A stretch of 64,000 nucleotides of DNA from Terasakiella brassicae (GCF_014641495.1 NZ_BMHV01000004.1:124001-188000), one strand, 5' to 3'; positions 7,777-38,739 are shown, counted from the first letter of the stretch. Notes: generated by a model not told the origin, from the sequence alone. A program made the numbers and translations.

Positions 7777-8463
7777 TTATCTCTCTGTTGTGAAGAAATC
7801 TCGAGCTTTTGATCCTACATACCAAGTAAGACCTTTGTTAGCTGAAAAACCAATTATTATTCCAATACCAAAGGGTATAGATTTTTCAACTGCTTTGCGT
7901 GTAAATGTAATTCCAACTTTTTTAAAAATTTCTTTCACTGCCTGTAGTGTAGCACCTTTAAGGTGCTGTTGAACTAGTTTCGAAAATGCTTTTTTCCCTA
8001 TAGTGTTGCCACCGCTTTTAGCGGCTTGGCTTATAGAACCCAGCCCTGCAATTATATAACAAAGCCGTCTTTTCTCTTCGTCTAAAATATCGTGACCGTA
8101 AACTGTTGCAAGGGCCATAGTCATTTCGATTTGAAATTTAATGCAAGCAATGGCATCTGCTGCGGCTCCCCCGGTGATTGCAACGGCAGTCCCGATACCT
8201 GGAATAATGCTTGTTACTGCAGTCGTACCACCTGAGAACGCGGAATAATAACTGTAGTTTGAAATAATTTTATCTGAAACAAGTTTCCGAATTTCATTTT
8301 CTGTTTTATCAGGTTTATCTTTTTTAAATTTTTCCAATAAATTTACAGTTTCTTGTTTTATGTCTTCAGGCTTTGCGAGTACCATTTCTACGGCTTGGAG
8401 AAATTTCGGTTTGTTGTGGTTGGCTTCGGTATTTATATGGTCGACTTGAGTATTCATGTTCAT
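7777..8463 (-). CDS. EcsC/DUF697-like membrane-associated protein
   Basis: A 228-residue protein of unknown role. It has a polar, Lys-rich first 75 residues, then a Gly/Ala-rich hydrophobic segment (TSIIPGIGTAVAITGGAAADAIACI, about 80-110) leading into an amphipathic helix (KFQIEMTMALATVYGHDI). A second hydrophobic glycine-rich segment lies near the C-terminus (IPFGIGIIIGFSANKG), before a WYVGSKARDFF end. The pattern of a glycine-rich hairpin followed by a ...YG.D(I/L) helix and a C-terminal GA..G...N segment resembles EcsC and DUF697 families, but the match is by eye. The gene is clearly richer in AT than its neighbours and sits in an AT-rich island, which suggests acquisition by transfer. 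It stands alone, convergent to dksA. Confidence 0.5.
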   Translation of the reverse strand: MNMNTQVDHINTEANHNKPKFLQAVEMVLAKPEDIKQETVNLLEKFKKDKPDKTENEIRKLVSDKIISNYSYYSAFSGGTTAVTSIIPGIGTAVAITGGAAADAIACIKFQIEMTMALATVYGHDILDEEKRRLCYIIAGLGSISQAAKSGGNTIGKKAFSKLVQQHLKGATLQAVKEIFKKVGITFTRKAVEKSIPFGIGIIIGFSANKGLTWYVGSKARDFFTTER

Positions 8464-8988
8464 ATCTTTATTTTATGTTGCCTAGATGTGAGTGTATAAT
8501 ATTATAATGCTCGACGCCTATTAAGTTGTTCTATTCTCTGCCTTTAAGGTGCAGCCAAAGAAAATTTGGTACAAGTTCTACGACTGCATTCCAATGATCA
8601 GGTTTATTTGTGGAGCATCCTAAAGATGCCTGCATTACTTCAATTCTACTATTAATTATAAACTATGGTAAAGTGAAAAATAGTAAGGATATTCACTTTT
8701 TAAGATGTACCATCATATAAGCCAGCATTTCACAGTTTTGGCATTCGATTTAAAAATTAAAACAGTTAATTTATTTTCTTAAATCGCGGCTTCATCGTAA
8801 AAAGTGGGCTAGTAACTTATTTTAAATGAGGCATCCTCGGAATTGAAAATTACTTCGACAAGGGCTGGAGTGCTTGTGTTTTTCGTTTGGGAAACGGGGC
8901 GTTTTCTAAATAGGCATTGATCTTTACGTTTAATTCGGTCTTATTTTTAATTGTTTATGTGATCTGTTCAGCATGGGGGCCGTAAGTC
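8464..8988. other. AT-rich gene-free stretch
   Basis: About 525 bases between the EcsC-like gene and pseC. It is strongly AT-rich and no frame has a convincing ribosome site or family motif. It must carry the promoters of both flanking divergent genes, but no sigma-54 site and no clear -35/-10 pair could be assigned. Together with the EcsC-like gene it looks like a small acquired or decaying segment. Confidence 0.5.
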
Positions 8989-10128
8989 ATGGCACTGAAA
9001 CCATATGCGCGCCCGGACGTGCGCAAAGAAGATATTGCCGCTGTTTGTGAGGTTCTGACAAGCCAATTCCTGACGACTGGTCCCAAGGTGCCTGAACTGG
9101 AAGACCTGTTTGCCCAAAAGATTGCGGTAAAGCAGGCGGTGGCCTGTTCCAATGGGACAACGGCGTTGCATTTGGCCTCAATGGCGATTGGGTTGCAGCC
9201 GGGGGACAAGGTGATCGTTCCGGCTCTGACTTTTTTAGCCACGGCAAATGCGGTGCGTATGTGCGGGGCTGATGTTGTTTTCTGCGATGTGGATAGCGAA
9301 ACCGGACTTATGACGCTGGATCATATCCGCGAGGCAGAAGCGCGTGGCGGTGCGGGGATTGTTGCGGTTTATCCCGTCCATATCGGGGGACATTGCGCGG
9401 ATATGCAAAAAATCAGCACCTATGCGCGTACAAAGGGATGGAAAATCGTCGAAGATGCCTGCCATGCCTTAGGGAGCCTTCATCACGGACATCCGGTCGG
9501 GTCTTGTGCCTATAGCGACCTCGCCTGTTTTTCACTTCATGCGACCAAAAGCTTTACCGCTGCGGAAGGCGGGATGGTTACAACGAATGACCTTGAGATT
9601 GCTCAGCGTATGCGAAGGTTGCGCAGTCACGGTATGGAAGCTGACCCCGCAACAGGGCCGTGGGCCTATGAAATGAAAGAGTTGGGTTATAATTACCGTC
9701 TAACGGACCTTCAGGCGGTATTGGCGATCAGTCAACTGACGCGTATGGAGGAAGTTGCCCGCATTCGATCCGATATTGTTGCGCGTTATCGGGCGGCGCT
9801 GGATGGTGTGTCCCCTTTTGTCAAAAGTGTTTTACCCGGCGGAAAGGATGTTCCGCTGTTACACCTTTTTCAAATCCTGATTGATTACAAGGGACTGGGG
9901 AAAGATCGTGCACAGGTGATGACTGAATTGTCTGCGCGCGGTGTGGGGACGCAGGTGCATTATATCCCTGTTTCGGACCAGCCCTATTATCAAAATCTTT
10001 ATGGGGTGCAAAATTTACCCGGTGCCCGTCAGTTCTATGAACGTGTTCTGGCTTTGCCGCTTTATTGCGGGCTAACGGATCGGGATATTGAAGATATTCT
10101 TGAGGCTGTCCGGGATGTTGTGCTTTGA
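8989..10128 (+). CDS. pseC: PseC-like sugar aminotransferase (DegT/DnrJ/EryC1/StrS family)
   Basis: A 379-residue PLP-dependent enzyme. Visible family marks are SNGTTALHLA (about 54-63, phosphate binding), VEDACHALG (154-162), FSLHATKSFTAAEGG with the PLP lysine at K187, LRSHGM, and ELGYNYRLTDLQAVLAISQL. The GVQVHY-type GTQVHYIPV and overall order fit PseC, the UDP-4-keto-6-deoxy-AltNAc transaminase of pseudaminic acid synthesis, used for O-glycosylation of flagellin. Other StrS-family sugar transaminases cannot be excluded. It lies within flagellar genes, which supports a glycosylation role, but no other pse gene is present. The start has only a G-rich, weak ribosome site. Confidence 0.72.
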   Translation: MALKPYARPDVRKEDIAAVCEVLTSQFLTTGPKVPELEDLFAQKIAVKQAVACSNGTTALHLASMAIGLQPGDKVIVPALTFLATANAVRMCGADVVFCDVDSETGLMTLDHIREAEARGGAGIVAVYPVHIGGHCADMQKISTYARTKGWKIVEDACHALGSLHHGHPVGSCAYSDLACFSLHATKSFTAAEGGMVTTNDLEIAQRMRRLRSHGMEADPATGPWAYEMKELGYNYRLTDLQAVLAISQLTRMEEVARIRSDIVARYRAALDGVSPFVKSVLPGGKDVPLLHLFQILIDYKGLGKDRAQVMTELSARGVGTQVHYIPVSDQPYYQNLYGVQNLPGARQFYERVLALPLYCGLTDRDIEDILEAVRDVVL

Positions 10129-30344: not shown

Positions 30345-32833
30345 TGCTGGCGCTGTCTTTTTCCATGCGATTACATCGTCGATTAAAACGTGTCGTCCGT
30401 CAACCCATCAGCTGGGCCGTTGTGGGATGGGTGGCGTTTTTGGTGACGATAATCAATCATTTTTTGCTTCAGGCAGACAGTATGGTGACATATGTCAGTC
30501 TGGTCATCGGGATTGGTTGTATGGGCATGTTTGGCTGGGCGGTGGGCTCGGCCGGAAATGCCGGGGCGTTTGGTGATCTGTTGCGCCAAGCCATTGATGT
30601 TTTACCCGAGGCCCGATTAATCACGGCGCGTGATGGCTCCACCGTCTATGCCAATCCGGGCTTTAAACGACTGATGCCGATTATGCCGGGAAAACCGGAA
30701 ATCACAGGTATGGTGGATTTACTGGACGGTGAAGGCGCACAGGCGGAATTTAAGCGTCTGCGCGGGAATGCCCGTAATGGCGTTGGTGATTATTGTGAAG
30801 TCCCGGTCCGTTTAAGTGACGGTAGCCGCGAATGGCGGCGGATTTCTGTGACACCATTGGGAAAACCTGTGGGCTTTACGTTGTGGTTGGTGCGTGATGT
30901 CAGTGCACGGCGCGAAATGGAAACAGCGCAACGCAAAGAATTTCGCCAAATGTTCGATTTCCTCGATAATTTACCGGTGGGTTTTTTCAGTTCCGACCAA
31001 CAAGGGCGCTTTCGATTTGTCAATCAAACCTTGGGCGATTGGCTGGGGGTCTCACCGGAAATGGTACGTGCAACCGGATTGGGCTTGGCGGACTTTGTTC
31101 TGGATTTACGCGATGGTCCCAATGGGGTGATGAGCTTGAAAGGCGCAGATGGTCGCCCCTTTGACGTTTATGTCCGTCAAACCGAACTCTATGACGATCA
31201 AGGTAATTTTGTCCATAACCGTTGCCTTGTATTGCGCGATGGGATTGAACAGGGCCAAGTCGCCCAACACAGACCGGAACGTAGCTCAAGCAAAGCCTCG
31301 CTCGGCTATGATCCGCGTGTGCGTTGGTTGTTTAAGGAAGCACCGGTCGGCATTGCCGTGCTGGATCTGGAACGTAATGTTGTGGATTGTAACCGCGCTT
31401 TCCTTAAAATGCTGGGTCGCCATCAGGATGCGATTGTCGGTCGTTCGCTTTTTGATCAGATCAAGTCTGAATATCACGACGATGCGAGCCGACAGCTCGG
31501 CAAAGTCGCGATGGGGACAATGGCTGCTGTGCGCTTTGACGTGCAAATGCCGACAGCGCGTGCGCGTATGCTGACGGTCAGTGTGTTTGCAGGCCACATG
31601 GAAGATGAAACCGGGCAAATCAGCGGCCTTGTCTTGCACTTTATCGATGCGACGGAACAACGGGATCTGGAACTGCAATTTACACAAGCTCAAAAAATGC
31701 AGGCCATCGGTCAACTGGCCGGTGGGGTTGCGCATGACTTCAATAACGTTTTGACTGCGTTGACGGGCTTTTGTGAAATTTTGCTGGAACGCCACCCCAA
31801 GGGCGACCCGGACCATCAGGAACTGCAACAAATTTATCAAAGCGGAAACCGGGCAACGGATCTGGTGCGTCAATTACTCGCTTTTTCACGCAAGCAGACT
31901 TTGCGGCCGAAAATTGTCGATATTTCAGAAGTTATTTCCGATCTTTCAGCCATGCTGAACCGTTCGTTGGGGGAAACGGTTGTCTTGCGTATTGATCATG
32001 GGCGCGACCTGAAACAAATCCGTGTGGATACGGGGCAACTGGAACAAGTCATTGTCAATTTGGCGGTGAATGCCGGGCATGCGATGAATGGGGACGGCGA
32101 GGTAATGATCCGTACCAATAATGCGCTTGTCCACGACCCGGTGGAACAAGCCCACGATATTATGCCGCCGGGATCCTACGTTTGTATCGAGGTTTCCGAT
32201 ACAGGTTGCGGGATTGCACCGGAAAACCTGACCAAGATTTTTGAGCCTTTCTTTACAACCAAGGATGTGGACAAAGGAACGGGTCTTGGCCTATCGACCG
32301 TTTACGGGATTGTCCGTCAAACCGATGGCTATATCTTCGTTGACAGCGTGGTTGGCAAGGGAACGACCTTCTCGATCTATTTCCCGGCAGTGGAGGAAGA
32401 GGCGGTTGCGAAGAAAGTGGAGAAAAAACAACCGGACCTGTTTGACCATGCCGATTTGACCGGGACCGCAACCATCTTGCTGGTTGAAGATGAAGACCCG
32501 GTCCGCCTGTTTGGCGCACGTGCCCTAAGCGCCAAGGGATACGAAGTGATCGAAGCGCCCAGTGGCGATGCAGCGTGGGATATCTTTAAATCTCAAGCCA
32601 ATAAGATTGACCTGATTATTACTGATGTGGTTATGCCCGGCATGAAGGGCCCGGACCTCGTTGAACTGGTCCGGGCGAGCCAACCGGATATGAAAGTTAT
32701 TTTCATGTCCGGATATGCCGAAGACGTAATCCCCGACGGGATCGAAAATGACCCGACGATCCATTTCCTACCCAAGCCCTTCAAGCTCAAAGACCTCGCC
32801 TATAAAGTCAAAGAAGTCTTGGGTGAGGCTTAG
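30344..32833 (+). CDS. cckA: Cell-cycle hybrid histidine kinase CckA
   Basis: An 829-residue hybrid kinase. Two N-terminal membrane helices ([21 protein letters not shown] and [18 protein letters not shown]) are followed by about three PAS-type regions (about 85-180, 200-300, 320-440). A HisKA domain carries H464 in [17 protein letters not shown], then an ATPase domain ([32 protein letters not shown]) and a receiver with D761 ([14 protein letters not shown]) and SGYAEDVI. This order and the HDFNN/SGYAE motifs are typical of CckA. It normally feeds phosphate through ChpT to CtrA and controls flagellar and cell-cycle genes. Start overlaps flhB. A transposon lies directly behind the stop codon. 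Confidence 0.9.
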
Positions 32834-32840
32834 GTGTGTT
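32833..32840 (+). repeat. Target-site duplication, left copy
   Basis: GGTGTGTT directly outside the left terminal repeat, identical to 38717-38724 outside the right repeat. Its first G is the last base of the cckA TAG stop. Confidence 0.85.
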
Positions 32841-32863
32841 CGGTATTATGTAGCAAACACACC
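32841..32863 (+). repeat. Left inverted terminal repeat
   Basis: Begins CGGTATTATG and ends ACACACC. It is identical over 23 of 23 bases to the reverse complement of 38694-38716. Weaker similarity continues inward for about 11 more bases (7 of 11 matches). Confidence 0.93.
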
Positions 32864-32963
32864 TAAACCAAATTAGAAGGAATTGTTGCTCCAGAGAATG
32901 AGACTTGATATGGTTCACATACAAGAGAGAGGCGTCTTGCCCTTTCCTGTTCGGAGTTTAGAG

Positions 32964-32998
32964 GAAGATCATCGTGTGAGCGGTGATCTTCTTTTTTT
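32964..32998 (+). terminator. Inward-facing terminator at the left transposon end
   Basis: GAAGATCATCG (32964-32974) pairs with CGGTGATCTTC (32981-32991, one mismatch), followed by seven T residues (32992-32998). It acts on plus-strand transcripts, so it would stop cckA read-through before it runs antisense into the ATPase gene. Confidence 0.8.
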
Positions 32999-34703
32999 AT
33001 GACTGTCTCAAAATAAGTGTTTCGATCAAAAATGATAAAAGATTATATGTATCTGTTCTAACCGTCTTAACTTTTCCACTGTCAGTTAAATCACCTTCGT
33101 GAACTACACCATTCATGTGTTTTAGATGACTTTTGAAGTTCCCTAAGCCTCTTTTGCAATCACGAAGATGATCTTCATAGAAGATTATTTCTTCATTTGC
33201 TGTCATCCAATCTAACAAGTTGGCTAAGGTTGGCTTGAAGTTCTTTTTAGCGGCTTCAGAAAAGGTTCTCCCTTGCTTTTCCTGCTCGTCAATCACCATC
33301 TTCTTTACTGCGCCATAATACCCTTCTTGGCGAATACGAACAGTAACAGCCCGTTCAAATACAGTGCGATATAACATGAGGCATGCATAAGGGTGCTTAA
33401 TTTGAATATTTTGAGCTTCGTGAATTAACGCACTTAACTTCTTATCATTAAGCAACACATTCATTGCTGGAAGCAAAGTGTCCCAATTTTCATTGTGATC
33501 CTGTGATGATGTCGTAGGTTTTGTCGCTGTTGCTGTAGGTTTGGGTGGGATCTTTATAGGGGCCGAAGTAGGCCCATTTTTGCCACCTTTCCCGCCTTTC
33601 GGACCCGGACGAGTTGGGGAAGATGCTGGTTGACCATATTTAAAGTTTCGGTTTGTTGAGCGATAAGTATCAGAGAGCGCCTTTAACGCCTTTGCAGCTT
33701 CTCTTTGTGATACTTTCTCTAAACTAATATCTGTTTTTTTGCTGTCCCAAGGAAGTAGGTCTGCATCATCCGAAGTAAAGAAAACCCACCCTAAAATTCC
33801 ATTGTATTCACTATGCCAAGTAGACGTCCAACCCACTTTAACTGTACGGTCTGCTGTTAATACAATTCGATCATTGCACACTACATACCAACCACATTCT
33901 GGGATTACATCGCTATTTGCCCGTTGAGACCAACCTTCTTCTCCCTTGAAGATATATTTCTCATGTGCGCCGATTTGAACATTTACATCAACACCATTTG
34001 ATGTTCTGAACTGAGTTCCACCTTTTAATTCTTTAACATCCTCTCTTATTTGAGGGCCAAACTCAGGAATAACGTATTTCCCCACTTGAATTTTCAAACC
34101 TTTTCGAATGCAGAGGCCATAAACCCGACGAATTCGATCAATTAGCTTGTTGTACCACTCTTTATCTTCGAGGTCGTAAGCCGCGTCCAAAGTTAACCTA
34201 TCAATGATGAATTTGTTTGACCTTTTCCCAGAAGAAATCGTTCGATCCGCAAATAGAGTCGTTTCATTTTCTTCTAAGTCTGATTTATTAAAATGTAAGG
34301 AAAAGGCTTCTTCACCATTATCAGTTATAAGCGTACCTTCATTACCTAACTTCCAGAATGCACGGATTAAGCCTACTCCATAAATGCCGATACTAAAGTT
34401 CTGATTGTGTCTCGCACCTAACCGAAAAGCTGTACCCTCAAGTAGATTTGTTTCCATCCCCCGACAATTATCTTCAATGATAATTTTATCATCGTCTAAC
34501 GACAGCTTAATTTCATAACCTTCATACGTTTCTGGTAAACCATTCACCATGGCTTTTTTCTTATCGACAATATCTCTCCGTGCTGCATCAATTGAGTTAT
34601 CAATCAAATCTAAAAGAGAATCTGTCGTAGAGATATCTGAGGTCAAGGCATTGAAAACGAACTTACGTTCCATGCCGAAATCGACGGGCAGTTGGTCTGA
34701 CAC
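32997..34703 (-). CDS. GHKL (MORC/HgiDII-like) ATPase with helical C-terminal domain
   Basis: A 568-residue protein of unknown function. Residues about 10-160 form a GHKL ATP-binding domain: SLLDLIDNSIDAARRD (N-box with N36, D39), IIEDNCRGMETNLLEGTAFRLG (G1 box), and SIGIYGVGLIRAFWKLG (G2 box). The usual catalytic Glu of the N-box is Asp (D32). An S5-like transducer region follows (about 200-345; WVFFTSDDADLLPWDSKKTDISLE), then a Pro/Gly/Thr-rich linker (about 350-400) and a helical C-terminal domain (YACLMLYRTVFERAVTVRIRQEG ... SHLKHMNGVVHEGD) that recalls DUF4145/HEPN-like folds. Such ATPases are found beside DNA methylases in restriction-like loci. It lies 46 bases after the methyltransferase gene. 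No nuclease motif is seen. Confidence 0.7.
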   Translation of the reverse strand: MSDQLPVDFGMERKFVFNALTSDISTTDSLLDLIDNSIDAARRDIVDKKKAMVNGLPETYEGYEIKLSLDDDKIIIEDNCRGMETNLLEGTAFRLGARHNQNFSIGIYGVGLIRAFWKLGNEGTLITDNGEEAFSLHFNKSDLEENETTLFADRTISSGKRSNKFIIDRLTLDAAYDLEDKEWYNKLIDRIRRVYGLCIRKGLKIQVGKYVIPEFGPQIREDVKELKGGTQFRTSNGVDVNVQIGAHEKYIFKGEEGWSQRANSDVIPECGWYVVCNDRIVLTADRTVKVGWTSTWHSEYNGILGWVFFTSDDADLLPWDSKKTDISLEKVSQREAAKALKALSDTYRSTNRNFKYGQPASSPTRPGPKGGKGGKNGPTSAPIKIPPKPTATATKPTTSSQDHNENWDTLLPAMNVLLNDKKLSALIHEAQNIQIKHPYACLMLYRTVFERAVTVRIRQEGYYGAVKKMVIDEQEKQGRTFSEAAKKNFKPTLANLLDWMTANEEIIFYEDHLRDCKRGLGNFKSHLKHMNGVVHEGDLTDSGKVKTVRTDTYNLLSFLIETLILRQS

Positions 34704-34749
34704 TATGCAACATCCAGAAAAATTAATTACTGGATAACAAGCTATAAGG

Positions 34750-35892
34750 TTACGCTGCGCATTGCAACTTTAAGGAGTCGATTTTGCTAAGAATTTGTTT
34801 TAGGAGAAATTCTGAGACTTTTGGCGATACACTATTGCCGATCATTCGGAAGCTTGTCCATTTAGTATGGTGGAATGCAAACCAATCAGGGAAACCCTGT
34901 AATCGTGCTGCTTCACGTACAGTAATCACCCGGCCTTCATCTGGGTGAATTGGACGAACAGCTTGATGACTTCCTTTTTCAGCACCAGTACCAGCACGTA
35001 GAGTTGGACATAGTCCGTCCCATTTCAGCTTTGTACTTTTGCTGACAGGATCAACCTTACCCGGAATTAAGGCCGCATATCGGGCTGCAACTTTCTCTGT
35101 ATGAATTGTAGTTTCATGGCCCGAACTATAACGATCCATCAATCTATCAACTGACACGTCCCATCCCATATTTTTGGGTGGCAATTTACGAGCGGCTCTC
35201 GCGTACTCAGACAGAGATTTTAGCTCTATACTTGGATATTTTGCCCACGAATAATCGCCCTTTTTCCTAGAAGACAGGACTGGCATCGGTAAATCAGCGA
35301 TCGCATCTTTGACTGTTATAGGCTTAATGTCAGATGTTGGCAAGAAATCCGCTAATGATAGTGCATCCATTTTGTTTGGGTTGTATCCAACAACGATTAC
35401 CCGTGTTCTTGTAGTAGGTGCTCCATAATCAGAAGCTTTAATGATCATCGGATCTAAGACACGGAACCTTGGAGTAATCTGTTGGATAGCACTCATTAAA
35501 ACATCAACTGTTCCTTCATCCAACAAGCCTTCAACGTTCTCCATAATGAAGAACTTCGGATCAAGCAAAGCAACTTGCCTAAAGAAATGTCCAATTAATG
35601 AGTTTCTTGGGTCTTCTGCGTCCCTTTTGCCAATACGACTAAAACCTTGGCAAGGTGGGCCACCAATTACACCATCAGGTTTGCGATCTCTTAATAGGAA
35701 ACGCCATGCAGAATTTTCAAGTTTTCCAATATCAGCTTGAATGGCTTGTGTCTGGGGAAAGTTAAGACGATAAGCTGATTGCAGGGTTTCATCAATATCA
35801 ACGGCTACACGACAATCAAAACCTGCCAATTTAGCACCTAACCCAAATCCTCCGCAGCCGGAGAATAAATCTACAATTATAGGCTTATCCAT
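34750..35892 (-). CDS. DNA (cytosine-5-)-methyltransferase
   Basis: A 380-residue C5 methylase with the ordered motifs: I DLFSGCGGFGLG (8-19), IV GGPPCQGFS with catalytic C81, VI MENVEG (117-122), VIII TRTRVIVVG, then a target-recognition region (about 190-300) and IX/X REAARLQGFPDWF and GNSVSP. It transfers methyl from SAM to cytosine in a sequence that cannot be predicted here. It precedes the GHKL ATPase gene in the same direction and is AT-richer than the core genes. It may protect the host from an activity of the ATPase, or act alone in silencing or protection of the element. Confidence 0.93.
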   Translation of the reverse strand: MDKPIIVDLFSGCGGFGLGAKLAGFDCRVAVDIDETLQSAYRLNFPQTQAIQADIGKLENSAWRFLLRDRKPDGVIGGPPCQGFSRIGKRDAEDPRNSLIGHFFRQVALLDPKFFIMENVEGLLDEGTVDVLMSAIQQITPRFRVLDPMIIKASDYGAPTTRTRVIVVGYNPNKMDALSLADFLPTSDIKPITVKDAIADLPMPVLSSRKKGDYSWAKYPSIELKSLSEYARAARKLPPKNMGWDVSVDRLMDRYSSGHETTIHTEKVAARYAALIPGKVDPVSKSTKLKWDGLCPTLRAGTGAEKGSHQAVRPIHPDEGRVITVREAARLQGFPDWFAFHHTKWTSFRMIGNSVSPKVSEFLLKQILSKIDSLKLQCAA

Positions 35893-35986
35893 GATGAGTT
35901 ATTCCATCCAGTATACTACAATAGATTGATTCTAACAGAATGAATTATGAAAAGCGATCGTTAATTTTAGATGAATTTGGGCAATT

Positions 35987-36211
35987 TTATATGTCTTCCA
36001 AATGTATATTGCTACTGCCTATGGCATGTAGCACCTGAAGCATAAAAGTCGCGCTGAAACTGCCCCGTGCGATCTTGTTACTTATGTTCTGGGGGCTTTC
36101 GTCTATTCCCAGTGCTTTCAAGCGCTCTGACACTTCTACGTAGTTCAAATCTTTGCGCGTTATCTCCGTTCTGAGCAACGTTTTAGCGTATTGCTTCCAG
36201 TCTTGGCCCAT
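35987..36211 (-). CDS. DUF6471-like small regulator
   Basis: A 74-residue protein: DWKQYAKTLLRTEITRKDLNYVEVSERLKALGIDESPQNISNKIARGSFSATFMLQVLHAIGSSNIHLEDI. The pattern of helices, with L-KALGI-E-x-NISNKIARGxFSAxFxLQxLxAIG, is that of DUF6471 and looks like a lambda-repressor-like helix-turn-helix. AAGGGATG precedes the ATG. It is divergent from the transposase and shares a compact promoter region with it that contains a palindrome, so control of the transposase is likely (inferred). Confidence 0.72.
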   Translation of the reverse strand: MGQDWKQYAKTLLRTEITRKDLNYVEVSERLKALGIDESPQNISNKIARGSFSATFMLQVLHAIGSSNIHLEDI

Positions 36212-36240
36212 TAGTTCATCCCTTAAAAATATGATTAATC

Positions 36241-36269
36241 ACTATATATGATGATTTTTCATTTGACAA
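36241..36269 (-). promoter_or_regulatory. Promoter of the DUF6471 gene
   Basis: On the minus strand TTGTCA (complement of 36264-36269), a 17-base spacer, and TATAGT (complement of 36241-36246), 30 bases before the start codon. The spacer contains the half-site TCATCATA found in the nearby palindrome. Confidence 0.65.
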
Positions 36270-36291
36270 GGTGGCCTGCAGTGGAGATAAT
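36263..36291 (+). promoter_or_regulatory. Promoter of the IS1595 transposase
   Basis: TTGACA (36263-36268), a 17-base spacer and GATAAT (36286-36291), one base from a perfect sigma-70 promoter. Its -35 overlaps that of the divergent DUF6471 gene almost completely, so the two promoters probably compete. Confidence 0.75.
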
Positions 36292-36307
36292 TCATCATAT
36301 TTGATGA
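36292..36307. promoter_or_regulatory. Palindromic operator at the transposase start site
   Basis: TCATCA-TATT-TGATGA is a perfect 6-4-6 inverted repeat placed directly after the -10 of the transposase promoter. Related half-sites (TGATGATT) occur at 36248-36255 and 36302-36309. A repressor bound here would block the transposase; the adjacent DUF6471 protein is the obvious candidate. Confidence 0.6.
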
Positions 36308-36323
36308 TTAATGATGAAAAACG

Positions 36324-37319
36324 ATGAGCCAACACTTTCTCCTCTCTTCTAAAGCAAAGACGTTATCCGTCGCCAAGGTGGCGCGGATGGCGGAAGAAGA
36401 GGCGTATGAGTTGTTCAAAGAGGTTCGTTGGTCCGTTAATGATGGCGATCCAGTTTGTCCTCATTGTGGTTCGGTTGAATGCTGGACATTCAAAAGTCGT
36501 CGTATCTTCAAATGCAAACATTGCAATAAGCAATTCTCAGTCACCAGCGGTACAATCTTTTCTGGTCGTAAATTGCAGCACCGTGATTATCTGCTGGCCA
36601 TTGCGATCTTTGTAAACTCCTGTAAAGGCGTGTCTGCGCTGCAACTGTCTCGCGATCTGGGCATCCAATATAAAACAGCCTTCGTTCTGGCGCACAAACT
36701 GCGAGAAGTAACTGGTGATGAAATGCAGGATGCGGTTCTGACGGGTGAAGTCGAAGTGGATGGCGCTTACTTTGGCGGCTATCTCAAACCTCGCAACTGG
36801 AAAGAAAACCGTGTCGACCGTCGTTTGCGTCGTCACCAGAACGGCAAGCGCCGCTGTGTCTTTGCGATAAGAGAACGCGAAGGTCGCGTTGTTCCCGTCG
36901 TTATCAAGTCTGAGACTTCGGAAGCCGTCACAACGGCCATTCGCAAACATATCGACAGCCAAGCCAGCATTCACGCAGACGAAAACGCTGCATATGATGC
37001 TTTGCATGCGCAATACCAGATGTTCCGCATCAATCACTCTCGCGTTTATAGCGATGGCGAAGCTTGCACCAATGGGGCTGAGGGTTGGTTTTCCCGTCTG
37101 CGTCGTGCCGAGATCGGGCAGCATCACCATATCGCTGGCAAATACCTTCATTCCTATGCCAATGAAATGGCCTATAAAGAAAACCGTCGTCGCCAAGACA
37201 ACGGCTCTTTGTTTGGTGATCTTCTGTTTAAATCTCTAAACCGTCCAATGTCACGCAATTGGGCCGGATACTGGCAAGGTAACAACCAACCGGGCGAAGT
37301 TTTGCTGTACCCGCACTAA
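36324..37319 (+). CDS. IS1595-family (ISXO2-like) transposase
   Basis: A 331-residue transposase. An N-terminal zinc ribbon (CPHCGSVECWTFKSRRIFKCKHCNKQFSVTSGTIF, about 46-82) is followed by a helix-turn-helix-like segment (GVSALQLSRDLGIQYKTAFVLAHKLRE). The catalytic core has VEVDGAYFGG (first Asp), HADENAAYDAL (second Asp), and TNGAEGWFSRLRRAEIGQHHHIAGKYLHSYANEMAYKENRRR (the N/E and K-rich third region). This order is typical of IS1595. The frame is intact. No strong ribosome site precedes the ATG, which could keep expression low. It is the only transposition gene in the element. Confidence 0.94.
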   Translation: MSQHFLLSSKAKTLSVAKVARMAEEEAYELFKEVRWSVNDGDPVCPHCGSVECWTFKSRRIFKCKHCNKQFSVTSGTIFSGRKLQHRDYLLAIAIFVNSCKGVSALQLSRDLGIQYKTAFVLAHKLREVTGDEMQDAVLTGEVEVDGAYFGGYLKPRNWKENRVDRRLRRHQNGKRRCVFAIREREGRVVPVVIKSETSEAVTTAIRKHIDSQASIHADENAAYDALHAQYQMFRINHSRVYSDGEACTNGAEGWFSRLRRAEIGQHHHIAGKYLHSYANEMAYKENRRRQDNGSLFGDLLFKSLNRPMSRNWAGYWQGNNQPGEVLLYPH

Positions 37320-37322
37320 ACC

Positions 37323-38084
37323 TTATTTAACGCGATCTAGCGCTTCACGATCAAAAATTGCCCGAGCTTTCCAATAATCATTTCTAGTGATTTTGTTTCC
37401 CATACCGTCAATGATCATTTGGGCACGTTTCAGGTGGTCGTTCGTCCCTATTCTAGCCAAATCCGTCGTAAGCTTGAGGTCTGGGCGTTGAGCGTCTTTT
37501 GCAAGGAACTGTTGCGCTTCTTTTAGTTTGTCACTGACCTCTACCGTAAAGAACGGCATGAGGACCATGTCAAACCATGCCTGAGAGCTTACACTGTCAT
37601 CTGTTTCTTTCTTCAACATCATAAACGGCATTTGGTTTTTGATGTTCAAATGACCTATGTACTTAACTTCACCGGGGGCAATGTCAAAACTCATATAGGT
37701 ATAGTCCTGCGTACCGATATCCATCCCTTCGTGTCTGGGGTAGCTTTGAATTTGACCGTTTCCAACTGCTAAACCAAGCCAGATTTGAGCTAAATGGTAA
37801 GTCCCAGGATCAACAACAGTGGCACTATAGTAAGATTTACCATAGTACTCGCTTAACCAAGCTCTAAATTGAGAATTTGGAGAACGAGTAATATCTTTAT
37901 CTTTGGCAAACCTTAAGTCACTGATTTGCTCACCACTCATTACAACAACAGCTTTCTTTGGCGGTATTTGATCGTAGAGGCGCAATGGCGCCTTCTGTAA
38001 TTCGCTGTGGGCCATGTAAGCGATACCACCAGCACAGGCATTTAACATAAAAAGCAAAGCCACTGATGCGATAATTCTAATCAT
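37323..38084 (-). CDS. Transposon-borne lipoprotein of unknown function
   Basis: A 253-residue protein with a lipoprotein signal (RIIASVALLFMLNAC, lipobox LNAC, acylated C17; Ala at +2 points to the outer membrane). The mature part has no recognised domain; it includes ATVVDPGTYHLAQIWLGLAVGNG, a DYTYMSFDIAPGEVKYIGHLNIK stretch that suggests a beta-sandwich, and a helical end (LKEAQQFLAKDAQRPDLKL). It ends 4 bases from the convergent transposase stop and lies inside the terminal repeats, so it is cargo. Role unknown; surface or envelope function is a guess. Confidence 0.6.
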   Translation of the reverse strand: MIRIIASVALLFMLNACAGGIAYMAHSELQKAPLRLYDQIPPKKAVVVMSGEQISDLRFAKDKDITRSPNSQFRAWLSEYYGKSYYSATVVDPGTYHLAQIWLGLAVGNGQIQSYPRHEGMDIGTQDYTYMSFDIAPGEVKYIGHLNIKNQMPFMMLKKETDDSVSSQAWFDMVLMPFFTVEVSDKLKEAQQFLAKDAQRPDLKLTTDLARIGTNDHLKRAQMIIDGMGNKITRNDYWKARAIFDREALDRVK

Positions 38085-38186
38085 TGTTTCTATTCCTTGT
38101 TTTCTCGACTTAGAGCGTCGAAAATTTATACATTAACGAGAACATGTACAATCATTAATTGCCGAAATGACGTTGTCTTTATGGTA

Positions 38187-38633
38187 CTAACCTACGCGAT
38201 CCAACTCCCATAAGGCCATGCTCTTTGGCCCTATGGACGCAATGCGTTTTACCGTGCCTTGTGACTGTAGGCGATCAATGGTGCCTTCTACGCGCTTCTT
38301 AAGGTTCTCTCTGTCGTTTGTATCCAACGGAACAATCAGCTTATCACTGAGCATTGCCGTAATATCAGACACGGTAAGCGGCTTTCTGGAATCTCTGAGG
38401 ATTTCCAGTGTCATTTTGTTGGTGTCGCCGTTCTTAAGGCCGGGAATGCGTTTGACCTTTTTCTTAGGCTTTATTTGGCTTATCGGGTAGTGAGGATCAA
38501 AAATCTTAATTGTAGAAGCGATATGCGCCAAGTCGCCTTCCAAGGTGCGAACCTGCTTACGCATCTCGTCAAGCTCACCAGCCAGTTCGGAATATTTGGA
38601 AATCAAACCAGAAAGAACAAAGGAATTAGACAT
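38187..38633 (-). CDS. Coiled-coil/winged-helix cargo protein
   Basis: A 148-residue protein. Residues 1-45 form a coiled coil (SFVLSGLISKYSELAGELDEMRKQVRTLEGDLAHIASTIKIFDPHY), then a basic linker (IKPKKKVKRIPG) and a winged-helix-like domain (NKMTLEILRDSRKPLTVSDITAM ... NLKKRVEGTIDRLQSQGTVKRIASIGPKSMALWEL). Small proteins of this plan are common in mobile regions of proteobacteria; their role is not known to me. Its ribosome site (GGTGAGG) lies within a hairpin at 38640-38663. It is the cargo gene closest to the right end. Confidence 0.6.
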   Translation of the reverse strand: MSNSFVLSGLISKYSELAGELDEMRKQVRTLEGDLAHIASTIKIFDPHYPISQIKPKKKVKRIPGLKNGDTNKMTLEILRDSRKPLTVSDITAMLSDKLIVPLDTNDRENLKKRVEGTIDRLQSQGTVKRIASIGPKSMALWELDRVG

Positions 38634-38634
38634 G

Positions 38635-38663
38635 AAAAAGCCTCACCACTTATTACGTGAGGC
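38635..38663 (-). promoter_or_regulatory. Hairpin sequestering the ribosome site at the right transposon end
   Basis: GCCTCAC (38640-38646) pairs with GTGAGGC (38657-38663) around a 10-base loop. On the minus strand the 3' arm carries the ribosome site of the next gene and is followed by TTTTT. It could stop, or make untranslatable, transcripts entering the element from outside, as fold-back structures do in some other insertion elements. Confidence 0.55.
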
Positions 38664-38693
38664 CATTTTACTGAAATGGTTCAATTAAATCTG

Positions 38694-38716
38694 GGTGTGT
38701 TTGCTACATAATACCG
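38694..38716 (-). repeat. Right inverted terminal repeat
   Basis: Begins GGTGTGTTTG and ends AATACCG on the plus strand. It is the exact reverse complement of 32841-32863. An identical 23-bp copy follows immediately in tandem. Confidence 0.93.
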
Positions 38717-38739
38717 GGTGTGTTTGCTACATAATACCG
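38717..38739 (-). repeat. Extra tandem copy of the terminal repeat (pre-existing target) with right target duplication
   Basis: A second, identical 23-bp copy directly outside the right end. Its first eight bases (38717-38724, GGTGTGTT) are the right target duplication, matching 32833-32840. So the transposon inserted into a sequence identical to its own end, already present behind cckA, rather than duplicating its end. Confidence 0.8.

Follow-up and report, generated by a model that had tools for sequence, protein, structure and literature searches.

Can a compact transposon serve as a vehicle for bacterial defence genes? This question is raised by a locus in Terasakiella brassicae, where a 64,000-nucleotide stretch (GCF_014641495.1, NZ_BMHV01000004.1:124001-188000, called the window below) contains at positions 32841-38716 a single-transposase element that encloses a C5-cytosine DNA methyltransferase and a GHKL ATPase. 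A first-pass annotation, made from the bare sequence, had proposed an IS1595-family transposon with five cargo genes that might constitute a mobile defence or self-maintenance module. Our analysis favours, with fair confidence, the following reading: the element belongs to an IS1595 clade in which a conserved shell carries exchangeable cargo, repeatedly of anti-phage type, and its methylase-ATPase operon would act in a defence coupled to restriction-modification (RM) that is possibly abortive.

A conserved shell with two cargo slots

The transposase matches PF12762 over the whole domain (1e-44), PF12760 (2e-13) and the IS1595 model NF033547 (6.6e-47). The element thus combines a DDE transposase carrying a zinc ribbon with inverted repeats and an 8-bp duplication, as is characteristic of the IS1595 family. 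Its six genes, the transposase and five others, are arranged as follows (a dot denotes features without a strand).

32841-38716 (.): complete IS1595-family transposon, 5,876 bp, with perfect 23-bp ends, 8-bp duplication and transposase
32833-32840 (.): target duplication GGTGTGTT, 8 bp, left copy
32841-32863 (+): left terminal inverted repeat CGGTATTATGTAGCAAACACACC, 23 bp
32997-34703 (-): GHKL ATPase, 568 amino acids, predicted MORC-like GHKL-S5 module and HEPN-fold C-terminal domain, slot 1 (PF13589, 1.4e-9, and models)
34750-35892 (-): C5-cytosine DNA methyltransferase, 380 amino acids, slot 1 (PF00145, 3.5e-59; TIGR00675; PADLOC MTase_II, 1.2e-96)
35987-36211 (-): DUF6471 protein, 74 amino acids, conserved core gene and probable regulator (PF20075, 3.8e-26), adjoining the transposase in relatives
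36212-36323 (.): divergent DUF6471/transposase regulatory region with a TTGACA box and ATCATATNNGATG-type repeats, of conserved length in the family
36324-37319 (+): IS1595-family DDE transposase, 331 amino acids (PF12762, PF12760, NF033547)
37323-38084 (-): lipoprotein-like gene, 253 amino acids, slot 2, with a homologue beside the recA solo repeat in the congener G005
38187-38633 (-): 148-amino-acid protein near the right end, belonging to the family's conserved core and shared by relatives
38694-38716 (-): right terminal inverted repeat, perfect inverted partner of CGGTATTATGTAGCAAACACACC
38717-38724 (.): target duplication GGTGTGTT, 8 bp, right copy
38717-38739 (.): older solo terminal-repeat copy, 23 bp, perfect, the target of the insertion

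In the initial scan of genome contigs with the transposase, the only close relative was an element of about 8 kb in a congener (G004; L022:2252-10225), which has the same ends and the duplication AAAAGAAA. Because the same ends bound this sibling, the boundaries of the window element are not a matter of chance. The two shells share blocks of 89-92% identity over the transposase-DUF6471 part and over the 148-amino-acid gene with the right end, the transposases being 96% and the 148-amino-acid proteins 97% identical, while the cargo is unrelated in both slots. The sibling has Abi_alpha in slot 2, and in slot 1 a GHKL ATPase and a C5-methylase that both differ from those of the window element, together with an SprT-like protein and a 308-amino-acid protein. 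Since the methylases of the two elements are only ca 30% identical and the ATPases are alike over part of the GHKL domain only, the likeness of their cargo does not stem from descent of the elements.

Relatives were also sought in the order, in the class and in plasmids. In all, 32 elements were delimited in Alphaproteobacteria, with exact 8-bp duplications in 29 of them (the window element and 28 others); the smallest, which has only the transposase, measures 1.1 kb and the largest 11.4 kb. They have in common the end motif, the transposase and mostly the end-proximal 148-amino-acid gene (30 of 32), and DUF6471 is found in 19. Slot 1 typically lies between DUF6471 and one end, and slot 2 between the transposase and the 148-amino-acid gene. 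The family is therefore built as a conserved shell (ends, transposase, DUF6471 and the 148-amino-acid protein) with two slots that hold different genes in different elements. The first-pass annotation was right about the ends, the duplication, the intact transposase and the enclosed methylase and ATPase, as the end comparison, the sibling and the domain matches show. Its count of five non-transposase genes also stands, but two of these, DUF6471 and the 148-amino-acid gene, are conserved core rather than cargo.

It had further suggested a search for other elements with the same ends, and the cargo of those found bears directly on the defence hypothesis. Recognised defence systems, of RM type or cyclic-oligonucleotide-based anti-phage signalling systems (CBASS), are present in 5 of the 27 elements that have cargo of at least 120 amino acids, which is a small sample. 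L068 carries a type II RM system (C5-methylase, NotI-like enzyme and Vsr), L063 a type IIG-like enzyme with a specificity subunit, and L065 a type II CBASS (CD-NTase, E1/E2 protein, JAB-domain protein and a weak Cap15-like match). Methylase-GHKL sets are the cargo of both the window element and L022, the latter also with Abi_alpha. As a control, 57 cargo proteins match 157 PADLOC families at 1e-10, versus 5 for 56 flanking proteins, a contrast that is real but inflated because many of the 157 families are redundant methylase models. The defence link is thus not a one-off, given the RM-type systems and the CBASS operon in sister elements, and to this extent the proposed mobile defence module holds up; in the window element itself, however, no restriction nuclease was found. 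Nor is defence the sole cargo, since many sister elements carry genes of no recognised function. The other cargo includes Panacea (L107), PemK-like domains, IrrE-like peptidases, ankyrin and pentapeptide proteins, inositol phosphatase, membrane proteins and many of no known kind.

Three further observations concern these sister elements. The one with the CBASS operon (L065:6398-17772, 11.4 kb) has two IS1595 transposase genes. Many encode proteins of 250-360 amino acids with apparent membrane segments, mostly with no recognised domain and often beside DUF6471 (L065:11690-12769, L071:7619-8545, L115:7838-8890, L117:7742-8665), which are candidate defence or regulatory proteins. At L066:7127-10244 lies a further element that has a left end and, next to a truncated transposase, a C5-methylase (7905-9032); the right end was not found there.

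IS1595 elements with passengers are known already. The tIS elements MTnSag1/tISSag10 and tISCpe8, the latter a lincomycin-resistance element, have 25-bp terminal repeats and are both mobilizable by conjugation (PMC5704250). The window clade resembles them in its IS1595 DDE transposase, in the similar length of its terminal repeats and in having passengers in a single-transposase unit, but differs in its DUF6471 and 148-amino-acid genes, its two slots, its recurrent defence cargo and its occurrence in Alphaproteobacteria. While IS1595 passengers, methylase-paraMORC pairs and paraMORC-HEPN fusions have all been described, what appears to be new is a two-slot shell that includes DUF6471 and the 148-amino-acid protein and is repeatedly loaded with defence systems. 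No literature joining IS1595 with defence systems and cargo was found; this novelty is provisional, since the key review of the family (Siguier et al. 2009) lay outside the literature covered and may already note defence-type passengers. The more general proposal, that an undescribed and widespread alphaproteobacterial clade of compact IS1595 transposons is a two-slot shuttle for immunity genes, exchanging whole defence systems as units at gene-exact boundaries, seems to us evenly balanced.

The methylase-ATPase operon

We now turn to the operon in slot 1. The methylase has a full-length methyltransferase domain (PF00145 over residues 6-368) with motifs I, IV, VI, VIII and X, its translation shows PPCQGFS, ENVEGL and GNSVSP, and its motifs are intact, as are those of the GHKL ATPase. 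An endonuclease domain was found in no gene of the element with Pfam, NCBIfam or PADLOC, and the cognate nuclease of a type II RM system is thus missing.

Over residues 10-360, the model of the ATPase (pLDDT, the predicted local distance difference test, of 82) aligns with MORC2 and MORC3 at Z scores of 22.9-22.7, at best with 3.6 Å over 295 residues. Judged by this model, which has both the GHKL domain and the S5 module, the protein is predicted to be of the MORC/paraMORC type. For the C-terminal domain modelled alone (pLDDT 89.7), HEPN structures lead the structural realignment of the Foldseek candidates, with a best Z score of 10.8 and 3.0 Å over 119 residues. The leading matches include AF_0298, Csm6 and HEPN toxins, and nearly all leading rows are HEPN, above unrelated folds, which points to a HEPN fold for the modelled domain. 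Pfam gives only DUF4145 at E 0.2 and no match to the Ymh model. N531, H535, R446, H428 and E429 are conserved across five relatives. Some HEPN families vary at the Rx4-6H motif (PMC3710099); because the arginine of this motif is absent at the canonical place, we do not claim RNase activity for the protein. Residues 388-495 also match PADLOC PD-Lambda-5_A (E 4.2e-5; 2e-27 in the sister element L022).

Such arrangements have precedents. Cytosine methylases together with MORC/paraMORC proteins were first described by Iyer et al. 2008 (PMC2292703), and the window pair shares with those neighbourhoods a GHKL-S5 ATPase gene adjoining one for a cytosine methylase, in an RM-like setting; unlike them, it has no helicase or recognised endonuclease gene and is enclosed in an IS1595 element. 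Fusions of paraMORC with HEPN (Ymh) in RM neighbourhoods have been proposed to be analogues of PrrC/RloC (Anantharaman et al. 2013, PMC3710099). The window protein is likewise a MORC-like ATPase with a predicted C-terminal HEPN fold, and lies in an RM-like operon, but lacks the canonical Rx4-6H and a Ymh match in Pfam. PD-lambda-5, finally, has been described as a compacted RM and abortive infection system of prophage origin (Vassallo et al. 2022, PMC9519451); here the resemblance to PD-Lambda-5_A is restricted to the C-terminal domain.

Outside the transposon, a C5-methyltransferase is found near relatives of the ATPase in 78 of 80 loci in viral contigs, in keeping with the RM-type neighbourhood of MORC/paraMORC proteins and with the adjacent methylase in the window. 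In one genome of the class (G976; L135), relatives of the methylase and the ATPase are neighbouring genes without IS1595. A sequence search of the PDB with the ATPase gave nothing meaningful, the initial scan of genome contigs with it gave no relative, and a plasmid search with the methylase gave one distant relative. Since methylase-ATPase units occur without IS1595 in G976 and in viral contigs, the pair is not tied to IS1595; it is an old unit of its own. The first-pass annotation had linked the pair to this transposon and had named its occurrence at many unrelated sites without IS1595 ends as a refutation, so in that form the claim lacks support. The association of this particular pair with IS1595 is one capture among many, while the link of the clade to defence cargo stands.

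Insertion site and regulation

The 23-bp end sequence is present in only three copies in the assembly, namely the two element ends and the solo repeat at 38717-38739. The duplication GGTGTGTT is the first 8 bp of this solo repeat (its inner 8 bp, the insertion point), and the repeat with the transposon has a cckA-like kinase gene on one side and recA on the other. Orthologous solo repeats stand upstream of recA in the congeners G004 (L082:17384-17406) and G005 (L086:1008-1030). The window element hence sits within a pre-existing solo end, that is, an old scar, and the duplication is genuine; a tandem-repeat artefact is ruled out by these orthologues. The spacing from the solo repeat to a conserved CGATTCG is equal across species, 22 nt as counted on the alignment, and degenerate forms of the repeat occur in G002 and perhaps also in G001. 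Beside the solo repeat of G005 there is still a gene homologous (61% identity) to the lipoprotein-like gene in slot 2 of the window element.

The solo end has no mismatch in three species of the genus and is at an equal distance upstream of recA, although the neighbouring intergenic DNA has diverged. In G004 (L082:11422-17406), the cckA-like and flagellar genes upstream of recA are on the opposite strand compared to the other species. In G003, another congener, a single left end of this transposon stands alone at a different place (L250:6266-6288), with no element attached. We also considered a preference for own ends as target as a trait of the family, which was rejected as none of the 31 other elements is inserted in its own end; one apparent second case, L112, is an overlap artefact.

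As for regulation, a comparison of 18 elements shows DUF6471 and the transposase to be oriented divergently, with a gap of 108-133 bp that in most cases has a TTGACA-like box and in which ATCATATNCGATG-like motifs, partly palindromic, are repeated. Among the DUF6471 matches in the order, 17 of 25 have an IS1595 transposase or a remnant of it within 1.5 kb. DUF6471, of which there is no mention in the literature searched, probably regulates transposition, most plausibly by repressing the transposase from the divergent promoter.

Proposed working and its alternatives

In the defence reading, the methylase would mark the host's own cytosines at a target motif, the ATPase clamp of the MORC-HEPN protein would detect either incoming DNA that lacks the mark or a failure of modification, and the HEPN-fold domain would be the effector, most likely acting on RNA, which would make this an RM-coupled abortive defence. 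As the element has no DNA nuclease, damage to RNA in an abortive response seems likelier than cleavage of DNA. Several points weigh against this reading. The structural match to HEPN (Z 10.8) is moderate for a helical domain, and a Foldseek search restricted to the C-terminal domain had no match below E = 0.5. With the canonical arginine absent and N-x3-H kept, RNase activity is uncertain. The likeness to PD-Lambda-5_A is weak (4e-5) and does not amount to a full-length PD-lambda-5 match. Furthermore, the cargo of many sister elements has no recognised function, and the single copy in the assembly gives no sign of recent transposition.

The alternative that survives best, although we consider it unlikely, is restriction by DNA cutting, in which unmethylated DNA would be clamped by the MORC-like ATPase and cut either by that protein's C-terminal domain or by a nuclease from another locus, for example a Vsr-like enzyme. 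Vsr homologues are neighbours in some relatives (L166, L210, L212, L223) and in the RM sister element L068, and DNA looping with separate endonucleases has been proposed (Iyer 2008, PMC2292703). However, as stated above, an endonuclease domain was not found in the element, and the predicted HEPN fold belongs to a superfamily known for RNases.

RM-type modules can also act as addiction modules. Loss of the element would then end methylation and the ATPase-HEPN protein would kill the cell, whereby the transposon becomes fixed. The toxin-antitoxin-like cargo of sister elements (Panacea in L107, the PemK-like domain) fits such self-maintenance, but the cargo is exchanged between elements and many sisters have no such module, which makes this option improbable. 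That the cargo was trapped by chance and has no role beyond riding along is very improbable, since, however mixed the family's cargo is, whole intact defence systems recur in independent elements and the methylase and GHKL motifs of the window element are intact.

If the defence reading is correct, the window pair would join DNA marking to an ATPase of MORC type that bears a HEPN-fold domain, in the kind of bacterial setting from which the eukaryotic MORC chromatin proteins have been proposed to descend (PMC2292703). Defence systems move fast, and their small carriers are poorly known, attention having been given mostly to prophages, plasmids and large islands. An element of 3-11 kb with a single transposase, in which whole RM or CBASS systems are exchanged within a constant shell, would be such a small defence vehicle, one easily found by its end motif, and the sister-element cargo without known function would offer a direct route to new defence genes.

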